From the NCBI GenBank assembly GCA_963678675.1, contig OY783195.1:11434479-11498478 (forward strand): 64,000 nt of DNA. The letters are read 5' to 3'. The DNA comes from Xiphydria camelus (lineage: Eukaryota; Arthropoda; Insecta; Hymenoptera; Xiphydriidae). A program made the position numbers and the translations under genes. Shown here piece after piece: positions 19,519 through 50,183 of this stretch; within the stretch, counting starts at the first letter, position 1, and every line of letters starts with the position of its first letter. The notes under the pieces were generated by a model, which did no database searches, had not been told where the DNA came from, and saw only the letters and a program-made list of their open reading frames with translations.

Positions 19519-19852
19519 ATGGTGCCGATTAACGTTTGAAATTACGGAGTCGGCACAGACCCCTATAACATCAGATGAAATTGAAGTTCATAATAAAATT
19601 CGTGACATTATAAACACTTTTAGAAACGTAGATCTCGTACCATTAATTGAATACGATTACGTATAGGATTTTGCTAATCCATCTGAACCCCATGGAACAC
19701 AGGTTGTGGAGTACCCTACAGTTTCAGCAGAAGAGGAAGATAATTTTAAACCTGCAGAATGCATTGTTGACGACGAAGGTGGAAAAGTCGACTTAAGTTA
19801 TAAGAGAAAAGCTGTTGAATTTTGGAAAAGCGGGAAAAAGCCCGACGATCAC
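19519..19852 (+). pseudogene. pogo/Tigger-like transposase, N-terminal part (copy 2)
   Basis: It reads from ATG at 19,519, but the leader is shortened by a deletion relative to copy 1. After EYDYV there is a stop (TAG at 19,664-19,666) where copy 1 has a leucine codon. The frame continues DFANPSEPHGTQVVEYPT and YKRKAVEFWKSG, the start of the helix-turn-helix. It is cut at 19,852 by the composite element; the protein resumes at 43,535. Confidence 0.75.
19847..19852. repeat. 6-bp target-site duplication GATCAC, left copy
   Basis: GATCAC immediately precedes the AGTAGTTAAGC terminus and is repeated right after the other end (43,529-43,534). The uninterrupted paralogue carries it once (718-723). 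Six bp is the Maverick/Polinton length. Confidence 0.9.
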
Positions 19853-20098
19853 AGTAGTTAAGCTAGGACAGTTCTGGGCCGATTCGCGGCCTGGACTCCG
19901 TGCAGACAGGTCGCTTGCGTGTCGGCTCCGTTAAATTCGGAGCAGTTTCGCGGTTAACTCATGTTCGCGAGGTTGAGAATTAGTGGTCGATTGGAAGTGT
20001 GGTGCGGGAAGCTCGTAGTTAGTACCAGCTGTGTGTAAAGTGAATAAATCGGCCTCGCCAGCGAAAAGCCGGTCGAGCGTCGATCTCGGGCGGCAAAG

Positions 20099-22827
20099 AT
20101 GGCCTCCGTTGGTTCTCCGCCGCGACCCGGTAACGGGTTCGTGGGGGATTCCGACGGGGCATCTCAGCCCCTGAATGAGGGACGCAATTCTCCGCGAGGG
20201 CATGATTCCTCGTGTGAGATCACGGGAGTGGACTCGTCGTATGATTGGGTGCTGGATCTTCTGCTCCGAGTCGACGGCCCGGGTGAGGAGGACTCCATTA
20301 TGGAGAGTCGACGGGGCAAGACGCCATATGGAGAGGCGGCCATTGATGAGAGGGTTCCAATAGCATTCGCGCCGGAATTGCCGGCGGCCGTTTCCGGTGG
20401 AGCGAGTCCGGTGTTGGAAGACGCTGATTGGGCGCCGTTGCAGCCTTCCGGCAGGACCACCGGGGTTCCGGATATGGAGATAGTGAGCAGCGGGGAACGT
20501 GATGACGAGAGAAGAGGGGAGGATAGTGACGTATCCTACTCTTCCGTTTCCCTTTGCCATGGTGATGATGGTGCGCGGACCGTGCGCAAAGGCACGAAAC
20601 GTAAGAGCACACTCGACTACCTTTTCGGCGCGCAGGATCCGTCGCTGATGCCGACGGACGGAAAGAAGAAGGTGGTGAGGGGGCCCAAGGCTGGAGGCAA
20701 AACCAAAACGGCCGTGATAAAGCCGCATAGTGTGGCACATGCTGGATGGATGCCACCATCGATATCCGTGACAGAGAGGAGGTCCAACGTAACATCGAGG
20801 CAATCCTCGGGGCGGACCCGAATGGGGCGGCGCGTTTGCTCCGTGAATGGCTAGACGATATTGATGACGTGCGCTGCACGAGCAAGAACCTACAAGGACA
20901 GATCGTCGCAAAGCTGCGCAGGGCGGTCTCCTCGCTGCAGTGCGGGGTCGGAGTGGTCCTCTCCAAATTGACAGAAAGTGCATCGGCATCGGTGAATGTC
21001 GAGGACGCCTCAGTTTGGAAAATGCGTACGCGTGAACTCAAAGGACCGTGTGATTGCTCGTCTCAGAGCGGACGTCGGCAGTGAGGGTCGCAAATGATGC
21101 GGCTAAACGTGTGGATGCGGCCTTAGTGTCCGACTCGCTGATTTCTCAGGGTTGACGGTAGGCGGTAACGATGACGGTGCGGGCGCGTCCCCCCGTGGGG
21201 ACGTGCATTGGTGAGATTGAAGGCGGTGTTACGGAGTTACCTCCACCGACGGCCCCGCAGGCTGCTATTCCGCAACGGATGTCGGCGGGACAGCGCCAAG
21301 AATAGCAGCAGCAGCGGCAGCAGCAGCACCAACACCAGCAGCAGCAGCAGCAGCGTCTGCAAGAGCAACAGCGGTATCTGCAGGATCAGCAGCAGCGCTC
21401 GCAGGAGTAGCGCTTGTACCAGCAGAGATAGCAGTACCTACAGCAGCAGCCGCCACGGTCGGCTTCCCGAATTTCGGGAGAGATGGAGCGAGCCGAGATG
21501 TTGGCCGAGATTGACCGCTCATTGGAGAAACTTGGCACCTTGAGAAGGCAAGTATACACGGGAGTAAGTGCCACGCGCGGTTACGCGGGTGTACAGGTGC
21601 CCGTACTCGCCGAAGACGCGATACTACCTGGGAGGATAGATCGCGGTATTTCGAGCCCGGCTGCCGTTGTCATGAGTGACGACCCCGTCTCTGGCGGGAG
21701 AATTGATATTGGCGAGTTCCCACCGTTGAGTTACAATCCCGAGGCGGAGGGCTGGGCGACCTTCTCGAAGTCAAAGAAGAAACGTATCAGGAGGAGCCAT
21801 GTTGGCAGCGGTGTGGGCATTGTGAGAGGAGGTGCAGCGGCGACGTATCCCGACACGCGCCTCCCCCCCTCAATTATAGGCGAGTTATGCGCAGGTGCAG
21901 GGTCGTACGCAGCAGCAGCAACGTCAACAGCAGCAGTAGCGGCAGAGGCAGCTGCAGACGTGGTAGTGCCCGATTGCCAATGTGATGATCGACGGCAACA
22001 CGGCGCAGTCGCGGGCAAGCAAACCGCGAAGACGAATCCCGAAGTCAGCGGTGGTGGCGATTACTGCGAAAGCCCCGAGCTTTGAGTATGACAAGGCACT
22101 GACCGCGGCTAAGTCACGCATCGACCCAAAGGCGCTGGGAATTGTGGCGACAAACACGAGAAAATCAATTACTGGTGGACTGCTTGTCGAGATACACGGC
22201 GCTGACCCGAAGAGGGGCGCCGATGCACCGGCGGCGGAGATCCGGCGCGTTATCGGTGACGGTGAGGCCAAGGTTACGATGCCGGTGAAATGCAGAGAAG
22301 TTCGTGTATCCGGTATGGACGTGTCAATCACTCCGCGGGAGGTGGCGGAGTCGCTGGCGGAACTCGGTGGATGTGATGCCGGCGATTTCAAAGTCGGTAT
22401 CTTCCGGAAAGGACGGCGCGGCATGATCTCAACGTGGGCAAAACTTCCCCTTGCGAGCGCAGTCCGCATGGGCAATGCATCAAGGATGAGAATTGGATGG
22501 ACGGTCACGAGAGTCGAGCTGCTTGACAATCGTTCACTGCAATGTTACCGTTGCTGGAATTTTGGGCACGTGCAGACCAATTGCACGAATACGGTTGTAC
22601 GTACCGGTGCGTGTTTTACGTGTGGCGTGCACGGCCACACGGCGGACCGTTGCACTGCAACGGAACCGAAGTGTCTCCCCTGTATGGACTCTGGAGCCCC
22701 TTACGCGCATCGTATGGGTAGTGCGCGATGTTCGGCTGCGAAAGTGCGCGCTAATCTCTCATGGAGGGAGATAGCTCATCCCCCTCCTCCTCTAGTGGTG
22801 GCCCCGGTAGAAATGCGCGATGCCTAG
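20099..22827 (+). pseudogene. LINE ORF1 (gag-like, CCHC zinc knuckles), left copy
   Basis: It starts at ATG 20,099 with an acidic, Ser/Gly-rich N-terminal region. Then follow a basic patch (VRKGTKRKS), a region with VQRNIEAIL, a glutamine-rich CAG tract (21,300-21,430), and a C-terminal domain ending in zinc knuckles CYRCWNFGHVQTNC and CFTCGVHGHTADRC plus a third cysteine/histidine cluster beginning CLPC. Such proteins bind LINE RNA. Frameshifts are present near 20,742 (one base short against the right arm), 21,050 and 22,000, so no full-length product is possible. The stop (22,825-22,827) overlaps the ORF2 start. Confidence 0.8.
21300..21430 (+). repeat. CAG-rich (poly-glutamine) tract in LINE ORF1
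   Basis: Runs of CAG/CAA/CGG triplets, interrupted by CTG and GAG codons, encode a Q-rich stretch in one frame. It lies within the ~1.39-kb block that is deleted from the right-arm copy. A smaller CAGCAGCAG cluster follows at 21,905-21,950. Confidence 0.8.
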
Positions 22828-25800
22828 CTTCCTACAAGCGAATGTTAACCGTAGTGCGGACGCGCAGAACCTGTGCGTACAACATGCGTCGGAATGGGAT
22901 GTGGACATCGTGATTATTGCAGAGCTGCATAGAGCACCGGATGCCTCACCTTTCTGGTTCGTCGACCGTTCCGGGTTGGCGGCGATATATTGGCGCAGAA
23001 CACCCTCGTCAAGTTCAGTTCCGTGCGTGCACCGTTACAGTGGAAATGGATTTGTTATTGTCTCCTGGGACAGAATATACGTTGTGTCGTGTTATTTTTC
23101 GCCGAATGTAGCGCTACCACAGTACGAGGCGGCTCTGGTTGACTTACGCGAGGTAATACGTCTTTTCCTGGGGTGTTCTTTCATTGTTGCAGGTGACTTC
23201 AACGGTAGATCGCGCGCATGGGGCTGTAGGGCAAACACCGTGCGTGGCTCGCGCCTCGCCGATTTCTCGGCGGAGCTGGACCTGCGGCTGCTCAACATCG
23301 GTGCAGTTCCCACGTGTGTGCGAGCAACTGACGCGTCGGTAGTTGATCTTACATGGTCGACTCCGGGACTGCGTCATGCAGTTCTGGAATGGAGAGTACG
23401 AGCAGAATGTGAGTCATTGCCTGATCATCGTTATATCACGTTTCGAGTGTATGCGGGCCCTGCGACCGTTCGCGTTGCCCCGGGTGTTCGTGGGAATGAC
23501 CTCGGCCCCCGATTGGCTTCAGCGGCAATCTCTTTCGCGCCTCGCTCACTGCGATGTTTATGGTTATGCTGCGTTACGAGACGGAGGACGTTGGTATCGG
23601 TGAGCGGGTTGCTGCATTTTCAGAAGCGCTTAGGGAGGCATGCAATACTGCGGCGAAGCGTGTTCATGATGGTAACCACCTGCGCGAGGGCAAGAAGAAT
23701 ACGTACTGGTGGAACCCACGCCTCGCGAAGCTACGCGATGATTGTAAACGAATCCGTCGAATACTCGGTAGGCTTCGTAGAAGTCGCCGGCAGGAAAGAC
23801 GGCGTGCGATCGCCATCTTCGCTCGGGAAGTAGAACTCCGCGAGGCGTGGAAAATGTTGCGCAGGGAAATCCGTCGGGCTCGTGCAGCCTCGTGGCTGAA
23901 AATCGTGGATGCGTTAAATGGCGATCCGTGGGGGCGTGCCTACCGCATCGCCATGAAGAAACTCAAAGGCACCGGTCTTTGCGCGACTGAGACCACGCCG
24001 AACGAAGAGATTGTTCCGATTGTTGATGAACTTTTCTCGATGCCGGCTGTGGTGGACGTTGGTCGGTTGAGAACGCTGCGACGCCGACTCGGATTGCCGA
24101 CCCCGCCGCCCGTGCCGTTTGAAGGGGTTTCCCCCCTTCGCGTCAGTATGTCGGTACGAAAAAAGTGCGGAGGTAGTGCGGCGCCCGGTCCCGATGGAAT
24201 TCGCGGCACTTGGTTATATTGCGCGACGGATGAGTTCATTGAATCGCTTGCGAAACTCTTCACAGACTGCCTGACGCGCGGCGAATTCCCGCATGCATGG
24301 AAGATTGCTAACCTTGTACTGATCCCCAAGATGAACGATGAGAGGGTTGTTATCCCGGGTAAATTCCGTCCGATATGCCTGCTGAACGACATCAGTAAAG
24401 CCTTCGAGAGAGTAATGCGGTGCGAATTGTTGAGACACTGAATGTTCCGGGTCGAGCTGGCGGTGGCTTCTCGGATTCACAATTTGGCTTTCGGGAGAGA
24501 AGATCTACAGTAGATGCGATGTTGATCGTCAGGGAATTTGCGGAGAGTGTAAAGAACTGTGGGGAGGCGGCGGTCGCTGTTAGCCTAGATATTAAGAATG
24601 CGTTTAACAGCATCCCGTGGGTCTGTATCATTGAGCAGCTGGAAAATATGGAGATTCCTGCGTACCTTGTCGCTTTATTCGTGATTATCTGTCGGAGCGC
24701 AGTGTGCAGTTCCGCGGCTCCGACGGGGAAATTCACAATTGCGCGATCCGCGCCGGCGTCCCGCAGGGTTCGGTTGTCGGTCCCTTGCTATGGAACATCG
24801 CGTTCGATTATGTACTGCGCGGTACCCTCGTGATAGGTTGTCGCCTCGTGGCATATGCTGATGACACGCTCATTCTTGCGCGCGGCAATTGCTTTCCAGT
24901 GGCGATTTGCAATGCGGAAATGCAAGTCAATAGAACGATTGCGAGAATCCGCGATCTCGGGCTTACTGTCGCCGCTGCCAAAACATCGGCAATTGTGTTC
25001 GGTACTACGGCGAGAACCCGCAATGTCGGTTACATTCGGGTAGACGGGCATCGGGTCGAGGTCCGACAAACGCTACGCTGTCTCGGTGTCATGTTTAATA
25101 ATAAACTCACCTTTAGCGGGAATTTTGTTGCGATTAAGGAAAAGGCGGCGCGGGTCGTTCGCGCGCTCTCGGGACTGCTGCCGAATCTTCGGGGCCCGTG
25201 CGAGGCCAAGCGCAAGTTATATGCGCACATGCTGCACTCGGTGATGCTTTACGATTCGCCGGTGTGGCATGATCGTCTGGCTGCTAATAAGAGCAATCGT
25301 CAACGTTTTCTGAAGATACAGCGTTGCATAGCACTCCGTATTGTTAGCGCATATCGCTCTGTTGTGCTGCACGCGGCACTTGTTCTTGCCCGCTTGATAC
25401 CGGCGCATTTGCTGGCGAATATGTACGCGCGAATGTATTGGCGGATTAAAGAGTTGTGTGCGGACCCGGACACGCATCCGATAGAATATCGGTTAAACTG
25501 GCTGACGGCAAAAGCCGCGACGCTCGATGAGTGGAGAGTGGAGCTCGAGGATCGGCGCCTCTTCGGACACCGAGTTATCGACGCCATTCGCCCTCACCTG
25601 ACGAAATAGTACCCCCGGAAGCGCGGGGCACTGTCGTTTCGCCTCACGCAGCTGCTGACGGGTCACGGCTGCTTCGGGAGCTTTTTGTTCCGAATCGGAA
25701 GGGAGCCATCGCCGCGGTGTCATCACTGCGAGGCGGACCGCGATGACGCGCTGCACACACTCGAGCACTGCACTGCGTGGGATCGCGAGAGGCGCGACCT

Positions 25801-25966
25801 GCTGTTCCTCGTGGGGGACGTCTCTTGGAGGACGCTAATTCCGGCGATGCTCTCGAGCATCAGTGTTTGGTGCGCGGTGGCGAATTTTGCCACAAAGGTT
25901 ATGTCCCGTAAGGAGGAAGCGGAGAGAGAGCGTGAATACGCGGGACGGAACACACGTGCCATCTAG
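22820..25966 (+). pseudogene. LINE ORF2 (APE endonuclease, reverse transcriptase), left copy
   Basis: It starts at ATG 22,820, overlapping the ORF1 stop in ATGCCTAG. Endonuclease motifs: QANVNR, IIAELHR, VAGDFNGRS (about 23,190), VVDLTW, PDHRYITF. Reverse transcriptase motifs: GKFRPICLLND (24,360), SLDIKNAFNSIPW, AGVPQGSVVGPLL, YADDTLIL (24,856). The C-terminal finger CHHC...HTLEHC lies near 25,720. Breaks: a frame change near 23,500, a one-base loss with stop TGA at 24,439-24,441 (both shared with the right arm), a one-base deletion near 24,680 and TAG at 25,607-25,609 (left arm only). The enzyme would nick DNA and copy LINE RNA in place; this copy is dead. Confidence 0.88.
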
Positions 25967-26215
25967 TGGAGGCGTGGGGCTGAGAATTCGGTTCCAGGAG
26001 AAAGAGCGAGGCGAGTGCAGATTGGCGGCCGAGCGGTCGACGCCCGCTCATTCGTGCGCTTCGGGCAAGCCTCTGCATTGGCCCGTTTTGGAGGGAAAAT
26101 ACCTGATTGGTGCGCGGTGTTATCCTCAGCTCCTGCGCGATTCCGAACGCGTGCTCGCGGCAGGACATGTACGGACATTGTCTCGCGTGCCGTCAAGGTA
26201 TATAGAAGTATCAAC

Positions 26216-27103
26216 ATGAGCGGAAGATCGTCGCCATCGTCCCACTCAGCGTCGTCCCCGTCCTCGTCGCCATTGCGGGGACGAGACGGATCGTCGTACG
26301 GTGAGAGGAAGACCCTCGGAGACGGCCGCGAGCATAACGAAAAGCTCTTTGCGCCTTCAACGGCGGGGTCCTGCGGCGGGGCACCATTTGGCGTCGCAGG
26401 CGGGTGGCACGTGGCGGAGCGACGAAGTGGTGAAGCCGTCCTTCCGGGTCATCACCGTCGGCGCTATCGTAGATGCCGGGCCGGCAAGAAGGTTCAGGAA
26501 CAGCGGCGGCGTCAAGAGGCAGCGCGTGCGGTGTCGTCCCGGCAGCGGCGTTGCTCGCAGTCGCCGCCCTCGTCTCTGTCTCCGCGCTCGGAGGGCCAAC
26601 AACAGCAGCGGAAGGTGGCGGCGATAGGACTTCCGGAACCGCGTTCGCTGCCGAGCTTGACCCGGCGCCGGAATCCATCTGAGGAGCGTTCGCCCTCTGA
26701 ACAACGCCGTGATCCAGAGTGCGGTGCATCAGAAGTGATAGAGGAGGCTGCCATGGCCAGTGGCTCCGCCGGCCCCTGGACGGAAGATGCGCCGTCGGCA
26801 GCGGTGGAAGCAAAGCCTGCTCACGACACACAGGAGGGTGTCGACGAGGAGTTCGATGTGCCCCTCGTGTCGCCGGGCGAGATCCTAGAAAGGGCTCTCG
26901 CTGAGGGGGAGCGCGCGAGTCGCGAAGCGTCGGCTGCCCCGGTGCTACCTCATCATCTTATGGTCAAAATGTCGGGACTGATGAGGGAAGTACTGAAGCT
27001 GGCGCACGCCATGTTCCCTCCTCTCCGGGGGGAGACATGGCCGACGGTGGCTCCGACATCCTATGAGGCGGCTGCAGGGACTCGCGTTACTGTTTTTCGG
27101 TAG
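26216..27103 (+). CDS. Putative third ORF of the LINE, left copy (C-terminally truncated)
   Basis: It starts MSGRSSPSSHSASS about 250 bp after ORF2 and runs 295 codons. It is Ser/Arg-rich at the start, strongly basic in the middle (RRRYRRCRAGKKVQEQRRRQ) and better ordered near the end (LVSPGEILERALAEGER, LMVKMSGLMREVLKLAHAMF). The right arm encodes a matching C-terminal block and extends further (to 37,415), so the last residues here come from a deletion junction. I do not recognise the family. R1-clade elements usually have two ORFs, so a real third ORF would be unusual; the frame also shifts between the two arms, which weakens the case. Confidence 0.35.
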   Translation: MSGRSSPSSHSASSPSSSPLRGRDGSSYGERKTLGDGREHNEKLFAPSTAGSCGGAPFGVAGGWHVAERRSGEAVLPGHHRRRYRRCRAGKKVQEQRRRQEAARAVSSRQRRCSQSPPSSLSPRSEGQQQQRKVAAIGLPEPRSLPSLTRRRNPSEERSPSEQRRDPECGASEVIEEAAMASGSAGPWTEDAPSAAVEAKPAHDTQEGVDEEFDVPLVSPGEILERALAEGERASREASAAPVLPHHLMVKMSGLMREVLKLAHAMFPPLRGETWPTVAPTSYEAAAGTRVTVFR

Positions 27104-27981
27104 CTTTGATAGCACTGTGCTGGGATACGGCGCTAGCAAGTTGAAATTGTTCTGCCCGCCTCGGGCGTAGGAATGCGTGAATTCATGAGTTCGTGCGCTT
27201 GTGCGCTAGACGCGGGCGTGAGCAATACATGTGTACGCGCGCACGATGTCGCGCGTATACCGAATGGTGGTCGGCGATCATTAGTTCCTTTTTTCCCTTC
27301 ACCACCATTTTATCGTTGCATATCACGCACTCATTGTCCTTTTCTTTCCTATATTCATCCACATAGTTCTTTCTCATTGATACATTATCACCGTTATGAT
27401 TTACCTTGTTTCAAGTATTATTTGTCCGCCGTTATAGATTATGCATGACGTTTTCTCCTCTTCATACTTCACTCGCAATCACCGTTCATTCATTACCTCC
27501 ACCATCACCCATTCAACCCTTCCCTATTATCATCATCATATTCGGTGATGGCGAGCGTGTGTGAGTGCGGCGGCGGATGTGCTGCCTTCGCCCTGCGCTG
27601 CCATCATCGAAGACCAACACGTGGTGTCGTCGAAACCCTGCGGGCGCTCTCTCTTTGAGAGCTGCAACTGCGGTTGACCTCGGCGTGACGTTCACTGGTG
27701 TCACAGGCTATGGATCATTTGATTGGTGATGTGAGCGACACGCTCTCGCCCCGGGGACCTCGTTGAACGATGGCCCTTTTTCTTGAAGAGGCAGTGCCGG
27801 AGATCTCCAGCCCTTTGCGCAAGCGGAGGGAAGGGGCCGAGAAGACAAGAAGGGTTTAGTGGGTATTGGGACCCGCGACCTTGCACTATCTCGTCGCGGG
27901 CTCTCCCGAGTCCCACACACCTCCGAGTTCTAGCCAAACTCGGAGACGGTGCTTAAACGCATTTCCCCTTCTATAAAAAAA
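27104..27981 (+). other. LINE 3' untranslated region
   Basis: No coding signal. It is conserved in the right arm as 35,778-36,545 inverted, including the block AGCACCGTCTCCGAGTTTGG (inverse orientation here) next to the A-rich tail. ATCATCATCAT-like runs occur near 27,528. Confidence 0.7.
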
Positions 27982-28886
27982 GGACAGTTCTGGGCCACCC
28001 TGGTGACCCTAGACTTATCCCCACTCCCACCTGGGAACCCTAGCCTTACCCCCACTCCCGGAGCACCGCCATTGCTAGCCTAACCTTACCCCCACCCCCG
28101 GTTACCCCCACTCCCATCTGGGGACCCTAGCCTTAACCCCACTCCCAGAGCGCCGCCATTGCTAGCCTAACCTTACCCCACCCCCGGAGTGCAGCCATTG
28201 CTAGCCTAACCTTACCCCCACCCCACCCAACCGATCCACGAGAGCGATGACGTCACAGCTTCTCGATAGGCGCGCACGCGCACGCGCGCATGCGAGCCTC
28301 GCAGGTCCTTATAACCACCCCCCCCCACGTCACATTCCTGAGCGATGACGTTATACCACATTCCTGAGTGATGACGTCATAGCTAGGCGCGAACGCATTT
28401 GCCCCCACCCCACGACCGCCCCCGCGGTACAGACAATGCACGCAGCTTCTCAGCACAAGTAAGCATACTAACGAGTTGCATCTCGAGAGCCTGAGCTGGA
28501 CCTAGACGAAATTTCTTATCGCAATAGTCGAGCATCGAGTTGAGGCTCGCGCGACCACCGCGGCGCCATCGTTCGACCGAGCAGGTTCCGACAGGCCCTT
28601 GCTATGCGGTAAGCATGATGATGATGATGAAAACGTCACCGCGAGCTCCATACACCCAGGATACCTGACTGTACGCCAGCCCCTGGTGGGTGACAGCGAC
28701 CATGAGGATACACCCAAGATGTGTCTGTGGGGATACACTCAAGATGCAGCTCTGATGCTTCGTGGTCGAGATCAACACCCGATGCCCGCTGTGGAATAAC
28801 TGCGCCACGTCGCAGGCGTGCAGGATTCGACAGGCGCGTGCAGGTTCGGACCAGTCTTGCTACGCACCGCTGGCGAGCGAGCGCGG
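27982..28886. repeat. Remainder of the original terminal repeat, left
   Basis: It begins with the LINE target duplication GGACAGTTCTGGGCC. C-rich tandem repeats (about 28,010-28,230) built from GCTAGCCTAACCTTACCCCC and CCCTAGCCTTACCCCCACTC follow, then CpG-rich DNA with GATGACGTCA palindromes. Near 28,700 are two degenerate units related to the 25-bp array at 28,925. Partner: 34,798-35,777. Confidence 0.8.
28248..28379. promoter_or_regulatory. Two perfect TGACGTCA palindromes, left terminal repeat
   Basis: TGACGTCA occurs at 28,248-28,255 and 28,372-28,379, with a near match (GATGACGTTA) between. This is the full CRE site bound by CREB/ATF bZIP proteins. Matching sites occur in the right terminal repeat, in the core (30,110) and just upstream of the polymerase start (34,784). 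Confidence 0.6.
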
Positions 28887-28924
28887 CATATGGGTGACCT
28901 TGTTCGCTCATACCCCCGGCTGGG

Positions 28925-29174
28925 GTGTATCCTCAGAGATACATCTCGGGTGTATCCTCAGAGATACATCTGGGATGTATTCTCAGAAATACATCTGGGG
29001 TGTATCCTCAGAGATACGTCTGGGTTGTATCCTCAGAGATACATCTTGGGTGTATCCTCAGAGATACATCTGGGGTGTATCCTCAGAGATACATCTGGGG
29101 TGTATCCTCAGAGATACATCTGGGGTGTATTCTCAGAGATACATCTGGGGTGTATCCTCAGAGATACATCTGGG
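28925..29174. repeat. 25-bp palindromic tandem repeat, about 10 units
   Basis: The unit core is TGTATCCTCAGAGATACA followed by a short T/G-rich spacer. TGTATC and GATACA form a 6-bp stem with a 6-nt loop in every unit. Units differ at only one or two positions. Since 25 is not a multiple of 3, all three forward frames stay open, so the long frames here are not evidence of coding. It lies directly inside the left terminal repeat boundary, and two degraded units sit inside the terminal repeats. Confidence 0.9.
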
Positions 29175-29196
29175 ATAAAAGCGAATTCAAAAATTT

Positions 29197-29367
29197 ATGT
29201 GCGTTGATTCTGCTCCTCCTGCTACTCCAAAATATCCTCTCGATGCTGCCGCTATACAATCCCTACACCGGCAACTATACGCAGACTTCTGGCGGGGGAG
29301 GAAGGAGGAGGTTGATAAGCACGCTAAAGAGCAATCGTTGAGAGAAATTAGAGTTAAAACAGAATAA
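29197..29367 (+). CDS. Possible 56-residue protein
   Basis: ATG at 29,197, TAA at 29,365-29,367. The predicted peptide begins MCVDSAPPATPKYPLD and has a charged, helix-prone body (LHRQLYADFWRGRKEEVDKH). Its composition is protein-like and it starts just after the 25-bp array, facing the minus-strand gene at 29,569-29,943. There is no family match from memory. It could be the last exon or remnant of a longer gene. Confidence 0.25.
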   Translation: MCVDSAPPATPKYPLDAAAIQSLHRQLYADFWRGRKEEVDKHAKEQSLREIRVKTE

Positions 29368-29568
29368 TGAAGTACCGGGCTGCATCCTCCACAGCAAACG
29401 CCGCCGAGCCTTATCGACTAAACAATCTCGAGTGATGAGTTGCAATTTAACTTTTGAAATACATCGATGAGCAAGCGTTGAGAGAGAGAGAAATTATTTC
29501 TTTCGAAAGGTACAAATGAGCGAAGCACAATTTATTTTTTCATTCTTTATTCATTCATTCAGCATATT

Positions 29569-29943
29569 TTACTTCATGATAAACTCGAACAAATTGTACT
29601 TTCCGCCTAGATACTTCAAGTAGAGTTTGTTTTCACCACAGGCCTTCACCAGCTTGTTGAACTCCTCGTCATCATCGCCGTCCTTGAAAAGTTTGTTGAT
29701 TCGTGATGGGAGGAAGACTGTGAAGCTCTTCTGCAGTTCCGCCACGATCTTAAGCCTATATTTTGTGGTTACTTTCTTCAGACCAGTAATCAGGAACTCC
29801 TTCTCGATTTCCAGCTCAGCCAACTTTTTCGTCTCCAGATATCTAGCCGATCTGCCGAGCTCGTTCAGTTTTGAGAGGTCCATTTTTCTCAGCTGTTTCT
29901 CTAGCTGCGACTGATGTCGCCACTCCAAAGACACGGGGTTCAT
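29569..29943 (-). CDS. Small protein, 124 aa, possible single-stranded-DNA-binding (OB-fold-like) protein
   Basis: An intact frame from ATG (29,941-29,943) to stop at 29,569-29,571. The N-terminal third is charged and helical (QLEKQLRKMDLSKLNELG). The rest has alternating hydrophobic strands: FLITGLKKVTTKY, LKIVAELQKSFTVFLPSRI, then an acidic loop GDDDEE, and LYLKYLGGKYNLFEF. The TKY...VAEL...VFLPSR...LGGKYN pattern looks like a small beta-barrel, as in OB-fold DNA-binding proteins. Being beside a DNA polymerase on the same strand, a replication role is plausible. Both the fold and role are inferences. Confidence 0.55.
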   Translation of the reverse strand: MNPVSLEWRHQSQLEKQLRKMDLSKLNELGRSARYLETKKLAELEIEKEFLITGLKKVTTKYRLKIVAELQKSFTVFLPSRINKLFKDGDDDEEFNKLVKACGENKLYLKYLGGKYNLFEFIMK

Positions 29944-30109
29944 ATGGGTAATCGCAGCTCAGCAGTGGGGGAAATCGTGCGACTACCTAGCAGCCGCCAA
30001 CAACCAATCAGATTTCATGTTGAGCAAGATGGCACAAGCCATGCGCGTCAAGCCCGAGTGATTGCGCATAGGTATGCGCGCAGGTTCGGACTTGTCTTGC
30101 TGTGGCTGA

Positions 30110-30117
30110 TGACGTCA
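30110..30117. promoter_or_regulatory. TGACGTCA palindrome upstream of the small gene
   Basis: It lies 167 bp upstream of the minus-strand start at 29,943, in the context GATGACGTCATCGG, with GATGACGCCATCG nearby at 30,153. It matches the sites in the terminal repeats. Confidence 0.45.
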
Positions 30118-30174
30118 TCGGCTGCGCCTCCGCCGTACAGCTTCAGCCGAGCTGATGACGCCATCGTGACCCCT

Positions 30175-30345
30175 GTTCCCAGCTCGTGCAGGTCCCGACT
30201 TGTCTTGCTGTGCATTAAGCATGATGGCTCTTTTTTCGAGAACAGTTTACAACGGTGATGTTCCCAGCTCGTGCAGGTCCCGACTTGTGTTGATGCGCAT
30301 TAAGCATGATGGATCTTTTTCCGAGAACTGTTTACCACGGCGCTG
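30175..30345. repeat. 85-bp direct repeat, two units
   Basis: GTTCCCAGCTCGTGCAGGTC starts at 30,175 and again at 30,260. Each unit continues with GCATTAAGCATGATGG and CGAGAAC. A third, degraded start lies near 30,344. It lies between the two core genes. Confidence 0.8.
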
Positions 30346-30419
30346 TTCCTGGAATCGCAACGGCGGCTTTTACCGTCGGGGGATCACTGTTTAAATAATG
30401 AGCCAACATTTCATTCATC

Positions 30420-33900: not shown

Positions 33901-34767
33901 GTCGTCGGTGTTCTGCACGTTGACGCATGCTTTCTTCTTCCTGATAAACTGTAGAAGTTCCAGGTAGGAGCTGCCTCGCATCGGGTTGTACCGGTTCACA
34001 CAGATGGTCAAGCTGATGACGACTCGTAAAGTCCAACCCGAGTCCCGCTCCTGGAATTCCTCCATTTGCCGGAGAATAGGTCCTCGCACATTCTCGACGA
34101 ACCACTGCGTCAAATCGGTCGTCTGCAGGATCGGGACGTTTCTCGTGGCGAAGGTCTTGAGCTCAACGATCGTCTCGCCATTCTTGACGATGCTGCATTC
34201 ACCCTCCAACACAGCATTCACCTTCAGCGCATTCTCTCTCTTGAGCGCGTTCTTGATGCGCGGTGTGAAGAGGGCCAGCGCGTCCTGCAAGTAGGCGGTG
34301 GGATCCAGGTTTTGTAGATTTACGATTACCCCGGTGCGGATGCGTCCGTCGAACGCCGATTGGAGATCCTCCCACGAGACACGATCGCCGCGTCTCTGCC
34401 CGCGTTGACCCAGACGGCCGCCTCTCACGAGCAGGCTTTTGAGTTTTTGACTGTAACACTTCACTTGTCGAATTGCAGCCAGGTACCGCTGTTTGGCGGA
34501 CACCGATGCCCCCTCTTGGCGCATCAATCGCCCGAGTACCCGCAAACTCACAGTCCCACGTTGGATCCACTGCGTGATCTCGTTGGGATCTACTCTTTTG
34601 TGAGCGATGAGTTCGAAAGCCCGTCGATGGGCGTTCAAGATATCCTTGCACTGTTCCGAAGACATGTTGTCGTTTCGCGGTCGCGGTGTGACTGGTGGCG
34701 TGATCGCGTTGCTTGGACAAAGACGTTGTGGCAGTAGAGGTGAGGTGGTGGTAGTAAACGCGTTCAT
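30928..34767 (-). pseudogene. Protein-primed-type family B DNA polymerase, one in-frame stop
   Basis: A single frame of about 1,278 codons is interrupted only by TAG at 31,699-31,701. N-terminal region about 1-420; a zinc cluster CDRC...HEVDC at 429-455; exonuclease motifs FIVYADFECLL (~487), HNLSGYDSHL (~625) and YLKTDVMLLADV (~777). An endonuclease-VII-like insert CHVC...RDHSHLTGRHRGAAHEGC lies at ~576-610. Polymerase motifs are DVNLDYPEAIHD (~912), KLMNNTVFGKTM (just before the stop) and YTDTDRLIYE (~31,415-31,430), with Arg where Ser is usual. Such enzymes copy linear Maverick-like and viral genomes from a protein primer. The stop removes the last catalytic motif from the main product, so I treat it as recently inactivated unless the stop is read through. 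Confidence 0.9.
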
Positions 34768-34783
34768 GCCTGTCGTGAAGCTA

Positions 34784-34791
34784 TGACGTCA
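34784..34791 (-). promoter_or_regulatory. TGACGTCA palindrome just upstream of the polymerase start
   Basis: It is centred about 20 bp before the polymerase ATG (34,765-34,767), at the inner edge of the right terminal repeat. It could be a promoter element with a very short leader, or lie in the 5' untranslated region. Confidence 0.5.
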
Positions 34792-35293
34792 TCGCTCACA
34801 CGCTCGGCTCGCCAGCGGTGCGTAGCAAGACTGGTCCGAACCTGTACGCCTGCGACGCGGCGAAGTTATTCCACAGCGGGCATCGGGTGTTGATCTCGAC
34901 CACGAAGCATCAGAGCTGCATCTTGAGTGTATCCCCACAGACACATCTTGGGTGTATCCTCATGGTCGCTGTCAGCCACCAGGGGCTGGCGTACAGTCAG
35001 GTATCCTGGGTGTATGGAGCTCGCGGTGACGTTTTCATCATCATCATCATCATCATGCTTACCGCATAGCAAGGGCCTGTCGGAACCTGCTCGGTCGAGC
35101 GATGGCGCCGCGGTGGTCGCGCGAGCCTCAACTCGATGCTCGACTATTGCGATAAGAAATTTCATCTAGGTCCAGCTCAGGCTCTCGAGATGCAACTCGT
35201 TAGTATGCTTACTTGTGCTGAGAGAAGCTGCGTGTATTGTCTCTACCGCGCGGGCGGTCGAGGGGTGGGGGCAAATGCGTTCGCGCCTAGCTA

Positions 35294-35510
35294 TGACGTC
35301 ATCGTTCAGGAATGTGGTTCGCTCGGCCCTATTACACGCGGGAAGTGGAGGAGTGGGGGTAAACGCATTCGTACCTAGCTATGACGTCATCACTCAGGAA
35401 TGTGGTATAACGTCATCGCTCAGGAATGTGACGTGGGGGGGGTCTGTAAGGACCTGCGAGGCTCGCATGCGTGTGTGCGCGTGCGCGCCTGTCGAGAAGC
35501 TGTGACGTCA
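35294..35510. promoter_or_regulatory. Three perfect TGACGTCA palindromes, right terminal repeat
   Basis: Sites at 35,294-35,301, 35,382-35,389 and 35,503-35,510, each followed by TCRYTCAGGAATGTG or a similar tail. With the left sites, 30,110 and 34,784 this makes seven perfect copies in about 7.9 kb of element sequence outside the LINEs. Confidence 0.6.
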
Positions 35511-35524
35511 TCGCTCGCGTGGAT

Positions 35525-35770
35525 CGGTTGGGTGGGGTGGGGGTAAGGTTAGGCTAGCAATGGCAGCACTCCAGGGGTGGGGGTAAGGTTAGGCTAGCAA
35601 TGCCGGCGCTCCGGGAGTGGGGGTAAGGCTAGGGTCCCCAGGTGGGAGTGGGGGTAACCGGGGGTGGGTGTAAGGTTAGGCTAGCAATAGCGGCGCTCCG
35701 GGAGTGGGGGAAAGGCTAGGGTCCCCAGGTGGGAGTGGGGATAAGTCTAGGATCCCCAGGGTGGCCCACA
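35525..35770 (+). repeat. G-rich tandem repeats in the terminal repeat
   Basis: Alternating units built from GTGGGGGTAAGGTTAGGCTA and GTGGGGGTAAGGCTAGGGTC, with GCAATGSCGGCGCTCC linkers. The same array is on the C-rich strand at 28,010-28,230. Runs of G4-G5 spaced by short loops could form G-quadruplexes, and GGTTAGG resembles the insect telomere repeat. Confidence 0.75.
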
Positions 35771-36545
35771 ACTGTCCTTTTTTTTTTATAGAAGGGGAAA
35801 TGCATTTAAGCACCGTCTCCGAGTTTGGCTAGAACTCGGAGGTGTGTGGGACTCGGGAGAGCCCGCGACGAGATAGTGCAAGGTCGCGGGTTCCAATACC
35901 CACTAAACCCTTCTTGCCTTCTCAGTCCTTTCCCTCCGCTTACGCAGAGGGCTGGAGATCTCCGGCACTGCCTCTTCAAGAAAAAGGGCCATCGTCCAAC
36001 GAGGTCCCCAGGGCGAGAGCGTGTCGTTCACATAACCAATCCAATGACCCGTAGCCTGTGACACCGGTAAGCGTCACGCCGAGGTCAACCGCAGTGGCAG
36101 TTCTCAAAAAGAGAACGCCCGCAGGGCCTCGACGACACCACGTGTTGGTCTTTGATGATGGCAGCGCAGGGCGCAGTCAGCACATCCGCCGCCGCACTCA
36201 CGTACGCTCGCCATCACCAGATATGATGATGATAATAGGGAAGGGTTGAATAGATGATAATGGAGGTAATGAATAAATGGTGATTGCGAATGATGTATGA
36301 AGGGGAGAAATCATAACTGGTAATGTATCAATGAGGAAGGAGGATTAATGATCGCCGACCACCATTCGATATACGCGCGATATCGTGCGTACGTACACAT
36401 GTATTGCTCACGCCCGCGTCCAGCGCACAAGCGCACGAACTCGTGAATTCACGCATTCGTGCGCCCAAGGCGGGGAGAACAATTTCAACTTGTTAGCGCC
36501 GTGTCCCAGCACAGCGCCATCAAGCTACCAAAAAACAGTAGCGCC

Positions 36546-37414
36546 GGCTCATTCAGCACAGCCTGAGCTACCGTGATACACGTACAATGCGAAATCCAAC
36601 CGCATAAATGGGGTAAAGTAACCGCGTGAGATCAGAATGGTCGCACATGCATCTTTATTATAACGCGCCTGATGGCGCATATTCCCTTGCAGCCGTTGAA
36701 ACGGATCTCATGCCACACACAGCTAGGGCGCTTATTCGCACCTGTGCGTATCCCACTAAACGCAAGACTCGAATCTCGCGCGGCAGGATCGTTTAGCAAC
36801 GCCCGCGCAAGACGGCGCGTCATGCGCCAGCCATCCCGCGCGCCATCGCCACCGCTAATAGTACGTTTTAATGGCTGTCACGGGCGTTACCACGCATCGA
36901 CAACGCGATGCGGGATTGAGCCCGCGCGACTGCTCCGACAATTCACTCAAGTACTCGCAATCACTCGGGATCCGGGACTCATTACCGCAATGTGCTTAAT
37001 GTTTCACAAATACGTGGACGCCTCGCACGCCGCGCTCGTGTAGCCTCCGCGCGCAAATATCACCTAACCTCAAATGGTACCATATCTGCAAGTGGGGGGA
37101 TGATATAAAGTGAATACAAACCAAGTGAAGAATAACAGAAGAAGGCAAAGACTTTAATGATACTAAATGAACTAAACTAGACAATGAACAATAATAAAAA
37201 ACAACGAACCGCTGTTGGTAACAAAAAACCCCCCACACTTAACCTATCTTAACCTATTCCACTTATAATGGGAAGGAGGGCGTCCAGAACGCGGAGCGAC
37301 CCGTCACCGTAGCATTAACCACAGTGAAACACCCATCAACGCCAAGGATGCCGCCGCCCCCGAGGACCGCATCGGAGACGGCGTGAACCCCCGACGCCTA
37401 CAACGTGCCGCGCT
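36546..37414 (-). other. LINE 3' segment present only in the right arm
   Basis: This block lies between ORF3 and the shared 3' region and is missing from the left arm. A 123-codon plus-strand frame (36,672-37,043) runs antisense to the LINE and has no recognisable motif. I see no boundary repeats that would mark it as a separate insertion, so a deletion in the left arm is the simpler reading. Confidence 0.5.
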
Positions 37415-38565
37415 CTAGACGCGCTCCTCCACATTACCGTCCCCGGCGACGTCGCCCCCATCTGCGGTCTCCGGCAAGGTGGCGGTCGGCGATAATGTCG
37501 GCGCCGCGGGCACCTCCGTTCCCAAGCCCCCCGGAACCATCTCCACTCTCAACGCTGAGTCCGTTGGTTGCCCCACGCCGCCGACGCCAGGTGTCTCGAG
37601 CACCCCACGGCTGCCCGTTCCACCACTCACAGTGATGCTTGATCCTGCGTCCCCAGAGATCGCTTCGTGCAGCACCGAACCCTCGGCGTCGCCGATCCCA
37701 TTATCCCGGGTCTCCGCAGCCACCTCGCAGAGTATCGGGGCCACCGTTGGCCATGTCTCAACCCGGAGAGGAGGGAACATGGCGTGTGCCAGCTCCAACA
37801 CCTCCGTCATCAGCCCCGACATCCTAACCATGAGGTGTTGAGGTGGCACCGGGGCAGCCGACGCTTAGCGACCCCCGCGTTCCCCCTCCGCGAAAGCCTT
37901 TTCGAGGATCTCGCGCGGCGACACGAGGGGCATCCCAAACTCCTCGTCAGCACCCTTCTGCACATCGCGCGCTGGCTTTACTTCCACCGCTGCCGACGTC
38001 GCAGCTTCCGTCCAGGGGCCGGCGGCGCCACTGGCTACAGCAGTCTCCTTTGTTACATCTGGTGCACCGCACTCTAGGTTACGGCGCTGTTCAGGGGGCG
38101 AACGCTCCTCAGAAGGGTTCCGGTTCAAGCTCGGCAGCGAACGCAGTTCCGGATGTCTTATCGCCGCCATCTTCCGCTGCTGCTGTTGGCCCTCCGAGCG
38201 CGGAGACAATGACAAGGTCGGTGACCGCGAGCAATGCCGATACCGGAACGACGCCGCACGCGCCGCTTCTTGACGCCGCCGCTGCTCCTGGACCTTCTTG
38301 CCGGCCCGGCATCCACGGTAGCGCCGACGGCGATGACCCGGGAGGACAGCCTCTCCATGGCGTCGCTCCGCCATGTGCCACCCGCCTGCGCCGCCAAATG
38401 GCGCCCCACCGCAGGACCCTGCCATTGAAGGCGCAGAGAACTTTCCGCAAAGCTTGCGGCCGTCTCAAAGGGTCTTCTTCTCATCGTACCATGGTCCGTT
38501 TCGTCCCCGCAATGGTGATGAGACGTGGACGACGCTGAGTGGGACGACGACGATCTTCCGCTCAT
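37415..38565 (-). pseudogene. Putative third ORF of the LINE, right copy
   Basis: It starts MSGRSSSSHSASSTS at 38,565. The conserved C-terminal block (LMVRMSGLMTEVLELAHAMF) is followed by about 90 more residues to the stop at 37,415, a Gly/Pro/Val-rich tail absent from the left arm. Frames change near 38,420 and 37,860, so the full reading is not open here. Confidence 0.35.
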
Positions 38566-38821
38566 GTTGACGTTAACTCTTCTAAACACCCTGACGGCAT
38601 GTGAGGCAATGTCCGTACATGTCCTGCCGCGAGCACGCGTTCGGGATCGCGCAGGAGCTGGGGGTAATACCGCACCACTATCAAGTATTTTCCCTCCAAA
38701 ATGGGCCAATAGAAAAGGCTTACCCGAAACGCACGAATGAGCGGGCGTCGACCGCTCGGCCGCCAATCTGCGCTCGCCTCGCTCTTTGTCCTGGAGCCGA
38801 GCCCTCAGCCCCACGCCTCCA

Positions 38822-41800
38822 CTAGATGGCACGTGTGTTCCGCCCCGCGTATTCATGCTCTCTCTCCGCTTCCTCCTTGTGGGACATAACCTTTGTGGCA
38901 AAATTCGCTACCGCGCACCAAACACTGATGCTCGATCCCACGCAGTGCAGTGCTCGAGTGTGTGCAACGCGTCATCGCGATCCGCCTCGCAGTGATGACA
39001 CCGCGGCGATGGCTCTCTTCCGATTCGGAACAGAAAGCTTCCGAAGCAGCCGTGGCCCGTCAGCAGCTGCGTGAGACGATACGACAGTGCCCCGCGCTTC
39101 CGAAGGTACCATTTCACCAGGTGAGGGCGAATGGCGTCGATAACTCGGTGTCCGAAGAGGCGCCGATCCTCGAGCTCCACTCTCCACTCATCGAGCGCCG
39201 CGGCTTTTGCCGTCAGCCAGTTTAACCGATATTCTATCGGATGCGTGTCCGGGTCCGCACGCAACTCTTTAACCCGCCAATAAATTCGCGCGTATACATA
39301 TTCGCAAGCAAATGCGCCGGTATGAAGCGGGCAAGAACAAGTGCCGCGTGCAACGCAACAGAGCGATATGCGCTAACAATACGGAGTGCTATGCAACGCT
39401 GTATCTTCAGAAAACGTTGACGATTGCTCTTATTAGCAGCCAGACGATCATGCCACACCGGCGAACCGTAAAGCATCACCGAGTGCAGCATGTACGCATA
39501 TAACTTGCGCTTGGCTTCGCACGGGCCCCGAAGATTCGGCAGCAGTCCCGAGAGCGCACGAACGACCCGCGCCGCCTTTTGCTCAATTGCAACAAAATGC
39601 CCGCTGAAGGTGAGTTTATTATTATACACGACACCGAGATAACGTAGTATCTGTCGGACCTCGACCTGATGCCCGTCCACCCGAATGTAACTGACGTTGT
39701 GGGTTCTCGCCGTGGTACCGACCGCAATTGCCGATGTTTTGGCAGCGGTGACAGTAAGCCCGAGATCACGGATTCTCGCGATCGTCCTATTAACTTGCAT
39801 TTCCGCATTGCAAATCGCCACCGGAAAGCAATTGCCGCGCGCAAGAATGAGCGTGTCGTCAGCATATGCCACGAGGCGACAACCCGTCACGAGGGTACCG
39901 CGTAGTACATAATCGAACGCAATGTTCCATAGCAAGGGACCAACAACCGAACCCTGTTGGACGCCGGCGCGGATCGCACAATTATGAGTTTCCCCGTCGG
40001 AGCCACGGAACTGCACACTGCGCTCCGACAGATAATCACGAGTAATGGCGACAAGGTACGCAGGGATCTCCATATTTTCTAGCTGCTCAATGATACAAAC
40101 CCACGGGATGCTGTTAAACGCATTTTTGATATCTAGGCTAACACCGACCGCCGCCTCCCCACAGTTCTTTGCACTCTCCGCAAACTCTCCGACGATCAAC
40201 ATCGCATCTACTGTAAATCTTCTCTCCCGAAAGCCAAATTGTGAATCCGAGAAGCCACCGCCAGCTCGACCCGGAACATTCAGTGTCTCAACAATTCGCA
40301 CCGCATTACTCTCTCGAAGGCTTTACTGATGTCGTTCAGCAGGCATATCGGACGGAATTTACCCGGGATAACAACCCTCTCATCGTTCATCTTGGGGATC
40401 AATACAAGGTTAGCAATCTTCCATGCACGTGGGAATTCGCCGCGCGTCAGGCAGTCCGTGAAGAGTTTCGCAACCGATTCAATGAACTCATCCGTCGCGC
40501 AATATAACCAAGTGCCGCGAATTCCATCGGGACCGGGCGCCGCACTACCTTCGCACTTTTTCCGTACCGACATACTGACGCGAAGGGGGGTAACCCCCTC
40601 AAACGGCACCGGCGGCGGGGTCGGCAATCCGAGTCGGCGTCGCAGCGTTCTCAACCGACTAACGTCCACTACAGCCGGCATCGGGAAGAGTTCATCGACA
40701 ATCGGAGCAATCTCCTCGATTGGCGTGGTCTCAGTCGCGCAAACACCAGTGCCTTTGAGTTTCTTCATGGCGATGCGGTAGGCCCGCCCCCACGGATCGC
40801 CATTTAACGTATCCACGATTTCCAGCCACGAGGCTGCACGAGCTCGACGGATTTCTCTGCGCAACATTTTCCGCGCCTCACGGAGTTCTACTTCCAGAGC
40901 AAAGATGGCGATCGCACGCCGTCTTTCCTGCCGGCGACTTCTGCAAAGCCTACCGAGTATTCGACGAATTCGTTTACAATCATCGCGTAGCTCCGCGAGG
41001 AGCGGGTTCCACCAGTACACGTTTTTCTTGCCCTCACGCGGATGGCTACCATCATGAACACGCTTCGCCGCAGTATCGCACGCCTCCCTAAGCGCTTCTG
41101 AAAATGCAGCAACACGCTCACCGATACCAACGTCCTCCGTCTCGTAACGCAGCACCGGAGATGTCATAAACTTCGCGGTAAGCGAGGCGCGAAAGAGATC
41201 GCCGCTGAAGCCAATCGGGGGCCGAGGTCATTCCCACGAACACCCGGGGCAACGCGAACGGTCGCAGGGCCCGCATACACTCGAAACGTGATATAACGAT
41301 GATCAGACAATGACTCACATTCTGCTCGTACTCTCCATTCCAGAACTGCATGACGCAGTCCCGGAGTCGACCATGTAAGATCAACTACCGACGTGCCAGT
41401 TGCTCGCACACACGTGGGAACTGTACCGATGTTGAGCAGTCGCAGGTCCAGCTCCGCCGCGAAGTCGGCGAGGCGCGAGCCACACGCACGGTGTTTGCTC
41501 TACAGCCCCATGCGCGCGATCTACCATTGAAGTCACCCACAACAATGAAAGAACACCCCGGGAAGAGACGTATTGCCTCGCGTTAGTCAATCAAAGCCGC
41601 CTCGTACTGTGGTAGCGGTATATTCGGCGAAAAATAACACGACACAACGTATATTCTGTCCCAGGAGACAATAACAAATCCATTTCCACTGTAACGGTGC
41701 ACGCACGGAACCGAACGTGACGAGGATGTTCTGCGCCAATATATCGCCGCCAACCCGGAACGGTCGACGAACCAGAAGGGTGAGGCTTCCGATGCTCTAT

Positions 41801-41909
41801 GCAGCTCTGCAATAATCACGATGTCCACATCCCATTCCGATGCATGTTGTACGCACAGGTTCTGCGCGTCCGCACTACGGTTAACATTCGCTTGTAGGAA
41901 GCTAGGTAT
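38822..41909 (-). pseudogene. LINE ORF2 (APE endonuclease, reverse transcriptase), right copy
   Basis: The start codon has decayed to ATA (41,907-41,909). The same endonuclease and reverse transcriptase motifs as the left copy are present, including YADDTLIL, and the 1.07-kb stretch 39,234-40,301 is open through the polymerase core. It shares the stop TGA (40,280-40,282) and the frame change near 41,200 with the left copy, but lacks the left-only deletion and nonsense codon. A ~75-bp deletion near 38,935 removes part of the C-terminal region after TLEHCTAWDR. Confidence 0.85.
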
Positions 41910-43277
41910 CACGCATTTCTACCGGGGCCACCACTGGAGGGGGAGGGGGCGAGTTATCTCCCTCCATGACAGATTAGCGCGCACTTTCGCAGCCGAACAT
42001 CGCGCACTACCCATACGATGCGTGTAAGGCGCTCCAGAGTCCATACAGGGGAGACATCCGTTGCGGAACAGCGGTCTGCGAGGCCGTCGGCGGGGGTAAC
42101 CCCGTAACACTGCCTTCGGTCTCTCCAATGCACGTCACCACATGAGGGCGCGCCCGCCCCGTCATCGTTACCGCCTTTGGGACCGCATCGCGCACGTAAC
42201 CCCGAGAAATCAACGAGTCAGACACTAAGGCCGCATCCACACGTTTAGCTGCATCATTTGCGACCCTCGCTGCTTCCACGACGTCCGCTCTGAGACGAGC
42301 AATCACACGGTCCTTCTCAAGAGACTCGCGCTCGAGTTCACGCGTACGCACTTTCCAAAATGAGGTGTCCTCGACATTCACCGATGCCGATACACTTTCC
42401 GTCAGTTTGGAGAGGACCACTCCAACCCCGCACTGCAGCGAGGAGACCGCCCTGCGCAATTTTGCGACCGTCTGTCCCTGTAGGTTTTTGCTTGTACAGC
42501 GCACATCATCAATATCATCTAACCATTCACGGAGCAAACGCGCCGCCCCATTCGAGTCCGCCCCGAGGATTGCCTTGATGTTACGTTGGACCTCCTCTCT
42601 GTCGCGGATATCGATGGTGGCATCCATCCAGCGATGTGCCACACTATGCGGCTTTATCACGGCCGTTTTAGTTTTTCCTCCAGCTTTAGGCCCCTTCACC
42701 GCCTTCTTTTTCCCCTCCGTCGGCATCAGCGACGGGTCCTGCGCGCCGACAAGATAGTCGCGTGTACTCTTGCGTTTCGTGCCTTTGCGCACGGCCCGCG
42801 CACCATCGTCACCATGGCAAAGGGAAACGGAAGAGTAGGATACGTCGCTATCCTCCCCCCTTCTCTCGTCATCACGTTCCCCACTGCTCACTATCTCCAT
42901 ATCCCAATCTCTGCAGGTCCTGCCGGAATGTGGCAACGGCGCCCAATCAGCGCCTTCCAACACCGAACTCGCTCCACCGGAAACGATCGCCGGCAGTTCC
43001 GGCGCGAATGCTATTGGAGCCCCCTCATCAATGGCCGCCTCTCCATATGGCGCCTTGCCACGTCGACCCTCCATAATGGCGCCCTCCCTACTCGGGCCAT
43101 CGACTCGGAGCAGAAGATCCAGCACCGAATCCTACGACGAGTCCACTGCCGTGATCTCACACGAGGAATCATGCCCTCGCGGAGAGTTACGTCCTTCATT
43201 CAGGGGCTGAGATGCCTCGTCGGAATCCCCCACGAACCCGAGACCGGGTCGCGGCGGAGAGAACCAGCGGAGGCCAT
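41902..43277 (-). pseudogene. LINE ORF1, right copy, with ~1.39-kb internal deletion
   Basis: It starts at the ATG complementary to 43,275-43,277. A frameshift near 43,260 and a nonsense codon after VDSS precede a 372-codon open stretch (43,125-42,007) that is intact where the left copy is shifted. The deletion joins CCGCAACGGATGTC directly to TCCCCTGTATGGACTC, removing the glutamine-rich tract and two zinc knuckles. The junction shows TGTC microhomology. Confidence 0.8.
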
Positions 43278-43528
43278 CTTTGCCGCCCGAGATCGACGCT
43301 CGACCGGCTTTTCGCCGGCGCGAGGTCGATTTATTCCCTTTACACGCCACTGGGGTACAAGCCACGAGCTTCCCGCATCACACTTCCACTCGACCACTAA
43401 CTCTCAATCTCGCGAACACGGGTTAACCGCGAAACTGCTCCGAATTTAACGGAGCCGACACGCAAGCGACCTGTCTGCACGGAGTCCAGGCCGCGAATCC
43501 GGCCCAGAACTGTCCTAGCTTAGCTACT

Positions 43529-43534
43529 GATCAC
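43529..43534. repeat. 6-bp target-site duplication GATCAC, right copy
   Basis: It directly follows the TAGCTACT terminus and restores the pogo/Tigger reading (TCACTCACTAGTGTGCAGAC). Confidence 0.9.
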
Positions 43535-50109: not shown

Positions 50110-50183
50110 TTTATGGAAATTCTTTCACGAACGCGAAATGTTCTGGGGAAAATATATATATTATCGAAACGTTAATTATAGTC

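Follow-up and report, generated by a model that had tools for sequence, protein, structure and literature searches.

A question raised by a 64,000-nucleotide stretch of the Xiphydria camelus genome (contig OY783195.1, positions 11,434,479 to 11,498,478; hereafter the window) is whether a mobile element of 23.7 kb, with a DNA polymerase core between two inverted arms of about 9 kb, was inserted there as a single unit. The original prediction held that it was, and took the combination of a Polinton-like core with arms rich in long interspersed nuclear element (LINE) sequence for a novel architecture. We favour a different reading, to which we assign a probability of about 0.85, namely a nest of three layers: a pogo/Tigger-like DNA transposon as target, a short Polinton derivative within it, and two independently inserted R1-type LINEs within the latter.

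That an integration has occurred is evident from the boundaries. The element extends from 19853 to 43528, and directly outside both ends lies a copy of GATCAC (19847–19852 and 43529–43534), the 6-bp target-site duplication of a Polinton-type insertion. The termini are inverted repeats starting with AG (AGTAGT at the left, AGTAGC at the right), and the longer inverted repeat pairs 19852–28883 with 34801–43529, interrupted by indels that reach 1.4 kb. The left flank (18614–19852, plus strand) is 93% identical to 718–1999 reversed and the right flank (43529–44250, plus strand) 96% identical to 1–723 reversed, the two being parts of an interrupted copy whose paralogue lies in reverse orientation at 1–1999. 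When joined, the flanks align with the reverse complement of 601–880, where GATCAC is present only once (718–723, minus strand), exactly at the insertion point. Both GATCAC copies, the AG termini and the unoccupied site thus stand as originally predicted. The pogo/Tigger label of the target is also that of the original prediction; the corresponding Pfam match, to DDE_1 in 43776–44447, is weak and slightly below the cut-off. The GATCAC duplication shows that something bearing these tips integrated.

The arms are indeed mostly LINE sequence, as confirmed by Pfam content and by the alignment of one arm to the other. Each consists of a 28-bp Polinton-type tip, an R1-type LINE and about 0.9 kb of terminal repeat. 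The left tip (19853–19880, plus strand) is followed by a LINE of about 8.1 kb (19881–27980, plus strand) with a putative open reading frame (ORF) 1 from 20099, a CCHC region within 21967–22827, an APE-type endonuclease at about 22820–23500, a reverse transcriptase (RT) at about 24400–25609 (Pfam), a structured 3′ end and a poly(A) tail. The last 15 bp of the tip, GGACAGTTCTGGGCC, reappear immediately after this tail (27982–27996, plus strand) as the inner copy of the LINE's own target-site duplication, and the rest of the left terminal inverted repeat follows (27997–28883, plus strand), with tandem repeats at 28015–28224. The right arm has the same components on the minus strand: a 28-bp tip (43501–43528) that includes the outer copy of the duplication, an inverted LINE of about 7.7 kb (35779–43500) with its poly(A) tail, the inner copy with one mismatch (35763–35777), and the rest of the terminal repeat (34801–35762). 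Both LINEs, 28 bp inside the termini, therefore possess a 15-bp duplication and a poly(A) tail of their own. Compared with the left LINE, the right one is missing two stretches, of about 1.39 kb and 70 bp, and has an additional 1.16 kb. As long inverted repeats are easily misassembled, the junctions might be suspected of being an assembly artefact. This is extremely unlikely, as the arms differ by about 3–15% depending on the segment and carry different indels, while two kinds of target-site duplication together with two matching flanks would hardly result from a false join.

The private duplications and poly(A) tails of both LINEs also bear on the size of the unit that moved. A composite Polinton of 23.7 kb, with LINE-derived arms and transposed as a whole, would account for the GATCAC copies that bracket everything and for the preservation of the 28-bp tips, which are presumably needed by the integrase, but it is difficult to reconcile with these features and with the copies found elsewhere in the genome. 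The element minus both LINEs measures 7,854 bp, with the duplicate target sites counted in. A search of the 357-Mb assembly for its inner terminal repeat, with 40 of 230 candidates scored, gave 141 matches; nine repeat-matching regions were fetched, and five of these were assessed as possible whole copies. Three (L010, L011 and L013) have matches to the core, the polymerase and a small ORF between paired repeats, one (L012) is partly rearranged, and one (L015) is a fragment. The other genomic copies have about 7–8.3 kb between paired terminal repeats, and no LINE sequence was detected in any of the five fetched loci scanned, whether these held copies or fragments. The L013 copy (on C10), with intact tips and 1.2-kb repeats, is 8,307 bp long, and its flanking 6-bp sequences agree at five of six positions. 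A query made of the tip plus the LINE 5′ end gave 33 genomic matches, and only in the two window copies is the tip covered; six non-window matches (83–95% identity) begin at query position 25–29, and the other 25, more distant ones at position 23 or later. We regard the movement of a composite 23.7-kb unit as highly unlikely. Because the LINEs have duplications of their own and the search gave no further copy with a LINE at its tip, the unit that transposed was most likely one of about 7.8 kb, with the LINEs arriving afterwards. The arms are ordinary repeats, about 0.9 kb long and split in each case by a LINE, and the new architecture that had been proposed is not supported.

The LINEs are most probably of the R1 type, an assignment made from Pfam, from the PDB matches of the endonuclease and from the relatives of ORF2. 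The endonuclease matched only R1Bm, TRAS1 and R1 in PDB (five of five rows, E up to 1), while for the RT piece alone the best PDB matches were R2 proteins, and weak. The best relatives of ORF2 are 40% identical, and two among the 120 matches listed are named R1DM-like. The final 141 bases of the LINE fold well beyond shuffled sequences (z −6.6). Two further genomic copies have the identical 5′ start base and unrelated flanks. For two LINE copies whose fetched regions stop short of the 5′ end, the tip-plus-LINE query places that end further upstream. A 5′ ribozyme was considered and rejected: Rfam gave no match at E 5, and the fold z was −1.2 to −1.7. An Rfam scan of the window gave no match either. 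Downstream of ORF2 the left copy has an open frame (25967–27103, with its counterpart in 36540–38907) without a Pfam match. This region, which includes the 1.16 kb extra in the right copy, is the most divergent between the arms (14%), and the frame showed no clear selection (p 0.19 when CpG sites are excluded, 0.024 when they are included).

How did a LINE come to reside at the mirror-image position in both arms? Divergence provides a first answer. Outside CpG sites, the inner terminal repeats of the two arms differ by 2.9%, compared with 5.4% between the LINEs over 19881–25782 and 13.9% over 26211–27084, an excess of the LINEs over the repeat with p = 0.0045 and 6e-14, respectively. Differences between the LINE ORFs cluster at third positions of codons, with an omega of 0.47 in ORF1 and 0.42 in ORF2. 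The third-position excess vanishes in wrong reading frames, and among six non-coding frame controls a single one, a frame in the terminal repeat, reached p 0.012, in the opposite direction. The differences thus bear a signal of purifying selection.

Phylogenetic analysis points in the same direction. In trees of the 3′ end, for which ten of 28 non-window LINE loci were used, the right LINE groups with L024, L023 and L026, then with L021 and L025, and the left LINE falls outside; support is 99 at both splits, and 89 and 86 in a longer, partly poor alignment. In the ORF2 tree of all eight sequences the right LINE again sits with C21, C6 and C10b, and the left LINE is separate. When C10b (with a poorly aligned endonuclease part) and the distant C29 were removed, the right LINE joined C21 and C6 in the six-sequence set with support of 100. 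A clade of the left and right LINEs was rejected by the approximately unbiased (AU) test (p = 3.2e-5 for ORF2, 2.8e-7 for ORF2 with the 3′ end), and in every segment compared the copy nearest to the right LINE was another genomic copy. Since other genomic LINEs fall between the two and their sister status is rejected, they appear to derive from different source copies and to have been inserted independently.

Several observations weigh against two insertions. Both LINEs sit at the identical base, and this would be explained more simply by one insertion event whose product was copied from arm to arm. A one-base frameshift at about 24414 is common to both and absent in all six other aligned copies, seven ORF2 sites are exclusive to the two window LINEs among six tested copies, and the grouping of the right LINE in the eight-sequence ORF2 tree is only moderately supported (68–70). 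A single-insertion history would have one LINE hitting one terminal repeat, with homogenisation, by gene conversion or by panhandle copying in protein-primed replication, placing it in both, and one copy perhaps being overwritten by ectopic conversion. A single insertion followed by ectopic conversion of one of the LINEs from a genomic copy does retain a small residual probability, and the long identical runs between the arms suggest that some exchange took place. The shared sites are clustered: six of the seven lie in 23376–23475 and 24415–24468, and five of the seven are covered by two identical runs (185 bp at 24320–24504 and 106 bp at 23421–23526) that rank among the four longest. We read these clusters as probable short patches of conversion between the arms. 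A second frame break at about 23450–23500 is not arm-specific, as the length there is identical in five close copies and three bases greater in the distant C29, and each window LINE carries private lesions as well. A single insertion copied to both arms, suggested by the shared frame breaks, is disfavoured by the LINE trees and the AU rejection, by a right LINE that is nearer, in all segments compared, to another genomic copy than to the left one, and by LINEs that have diverged more than the surrounding repeat with omega of about 0.4–0.5; we consider it unlikely. A gradient of conversion starting from the loop was also rejected, as divergence is non-monotonic with distance.

Two independent insertions at the same base raise the matter of where the LINE tends to land. 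Its target choice was surveyed in a sample only: of 271 first-look candidates 40 were scored, and 30 loci, the window copies among them, were examined. The flank after the poly(A) tail begins with GG in 17 of the 30 loci, with GT in seven, and with GA and TA in three each. In six of the 30 (again counting the window copies) the 3′ flank starts within Polinton repeat sequence, and two, both distant relatives with near-identical flanks, are in TTAGG repeats. When the LINE is removed, the left repeat has three TAGG words on the strand used, one of them being the insertion site, and no AAGG, compared with seven of each on the other strand. Given that most flanks start with GG or GT, and with only three TAGG on the strand used, coincidence at the same base in both arms is not extravagant. 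The repeat is rich in words of the CCTTA/CCTAG/CCTAA type (11 vs 3.6 expected, reached in none of 500 Markov simulations); CCTAA/TTAGG alone occurs three times (0.7 expected, 12 of 500 simulations). Strict site specificity in the style of R1, TRAS or SART was not found, as the 30 loci have 24 distinct 3′ flanks. Specificity for the Polinton tip was likewise rejected, given the many other flanks and the fact that none of the 31 other query matches covers the whole tip. In the two loci with TTAGG repeats (L038, L043), these follow directly after the LINE, as they do in R1-clade LINEs specific for telomeres, and the pair may represent one duplicated insertion. A 5′-truncated LINE with an apparent 16-bp duplication lies in an array of Polinton repeats (L024/L049; G000 C10, ~32718–32721 kb), in an orientation relative to the repeat that is opposite to that of the window copies.

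What, then, is the element that the LINEs have entered? Its unique core (28884–34800) is 93–94.5% identical to the cores of the LINE-free copies L010, L011 and L013. As had been predicted, a DNA polymerase lies between the arms: a Polinton-type DNA polymerase B (PolB) gene (30928–34767, minus strand) occupies one frame, broken only by an in-frame stop at 31699–31701. The first piece (31699–34767) matches DNA_pol_B_2 (Pfam), and the second covers 30928–31698. The first piece has 232 protein matches, the top ones 57% identical and one of these from Venturia canescens; among the 120 listed, the named relatives come from wasps, ants, beetles and one lacewing, and one is labelled as from a Rickettsia endosymbiont of a weevil. 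An alignment scan of viral contigs, where a first polymerase scan had found none, revealed a 36%-identical PolB on contig L001, beside an rve integrase and a Pox_A32-type ATPase. Genome contigs scanned by alignment yielded no relative of the PolB, and the 22-base tip pattern is absent from both contig collections. The PolB is predicted to be of the protein-primed type.

Pfam scans of the ORF pieces, among which not all small ORFs were included, detected no gene for an integrase, ATPase, protease or capsid protein. When the 11 proteins of L001 were compared with the window, PolB was the sole significant match and the integrase remained unmatched, in a comparison that diverged capsid genes could escape. 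As the scanned ORF pieces yielded neither an integrase nor any further Polinton gene, we class the element, from its sequence, as a Polinton derivative rather than a complete Polinton. The small ORF (124 aa, 29569–29943, minus strand) may encode a protein with an oligonucleotide/oligosaccharide-binding (OB) fold, for which the structural evidence is weak. It has a single relative (48% identical), and AlphaFold models computed from these two sequences show an OB-like strand order with a mean predicted local distance difference test score of 66 (35–66 over five models). A role in binding single-stranded DNA (ssDNA) is only suggested, as the best PDB fold match, the PRD1 single-stranded DNA-binding protein P12, has an E of 0.14 and is not significant. 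A 25-bp tandem repeat of about ten copies (28920–29174) lies just within the left end of the core.

Vertebrate Mavericks (PMC8097293) have terminal inverted repeats of 46–1,447 bp, an (AGT)2 end motif and 6-bp duplications, and intact ones measure 12.7–24.6 kb. The window element resembles Polintons/Mavericks in duplicating 6 bp of its target, in its AGTAGT-type tips, in the length of its terminal repeats (about 0.9 kb) and in its PolB, but differs in its size of about 7.8 kb without the LINEs and in having no integrase, ATPase, protease or capsid gene in the scanned ORFs. The nearest precedent we found for the LINEs is Ngaro in the endogenous mavirus-like elements (endogenous virophages) of Cafeteria, which, according to PMC8547959, also involves repeated insertion of a retrotransposon into Polinton-related elements; Ngaro, however, is a tyrosine-recombinase retrotransposon in a protist, whereas here an R1-type LINE of an insect has entered the terminal repeats at both ends of one element. 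SART1Bm targets (TTAGG)n (PMC7265360). The window LINE is similar to SART1 and TRAS1 in that its endonuclease matches R1Bm/TRAS1, it has a poly(A) tail, and two of its distant relatives are in TTAGG repeats, but target use in its family is loose and extends to many contexts. A LINE within a DNA transposon is also known from Xenopus, where Tx1L, which belongs to a different clade, is inserted in Tx1D; the window LINE differs in showing no strict site specificity. Our literature search found no paper evidently on LINEs in Polinton terminal repeats or on short Polintons without integrase, which is weak evidence of novelty as subscription papers were mostly outside the search.

The window has further features outside the element. 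Self-complementarity is 92–93% in two related palindromes of about 375 bp (49735–50110 and 57043–57423) and 84–85% in a neighbouring pair at 9836–10541, about 270 and 430 bp long; all of these are possibly fold-back elements. A 622-aa ORF (52395–54263, minus strand) and two adjacent ORFs of 171 and 419 aa (14006–15795, minus strand) have no Pfam match above the cut-off.

The preferred history of three nested layers can be outlined as follows. A pogo/Tigger-like DNA transposon served as the target of the Polinton-derived element of about 7.8 kb, with its terminal repeats, PolB and small OB-like protein, which inserted with a 6-bp duplication. A Polinton-type integrase would have been supplied in trans, as none was found in the element. 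Two R1-type LINEs of different lineages would then have been inserted separately at the mirror-image site 28 bp from the ends, probably by target-primed reverse transcription, to which the A-tails and duplications point. Short gene conversion between the arms may afterwards have spread a few patches, including the shared frameshift.

A giant element is thereby replaced by a resolved nest of mobile elements, and this points to Polinton derivatives cut down to replication genes and to a LINE family frequently located at the ends of Polintons, a situation akin to that of Ngaro in endogenous virophages. A broader reading is possible, though we rate it below even odds. It would have a self-contained family of integrase-less Polinton derivatives of about 8 kb, whose only products are PolB and an OB-fold protein resembling ssDNA-binding proteins and which spreads with 6-bp duplications, accompanied by an R1-clade LINE that preys on Polinton repeats. 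The preference of that LINE might be explained by the CCTTA/CCTAG-rich repeats, which resemble TTAGG telomere repeats, and such a hyperparasite would have taken both ends independently.

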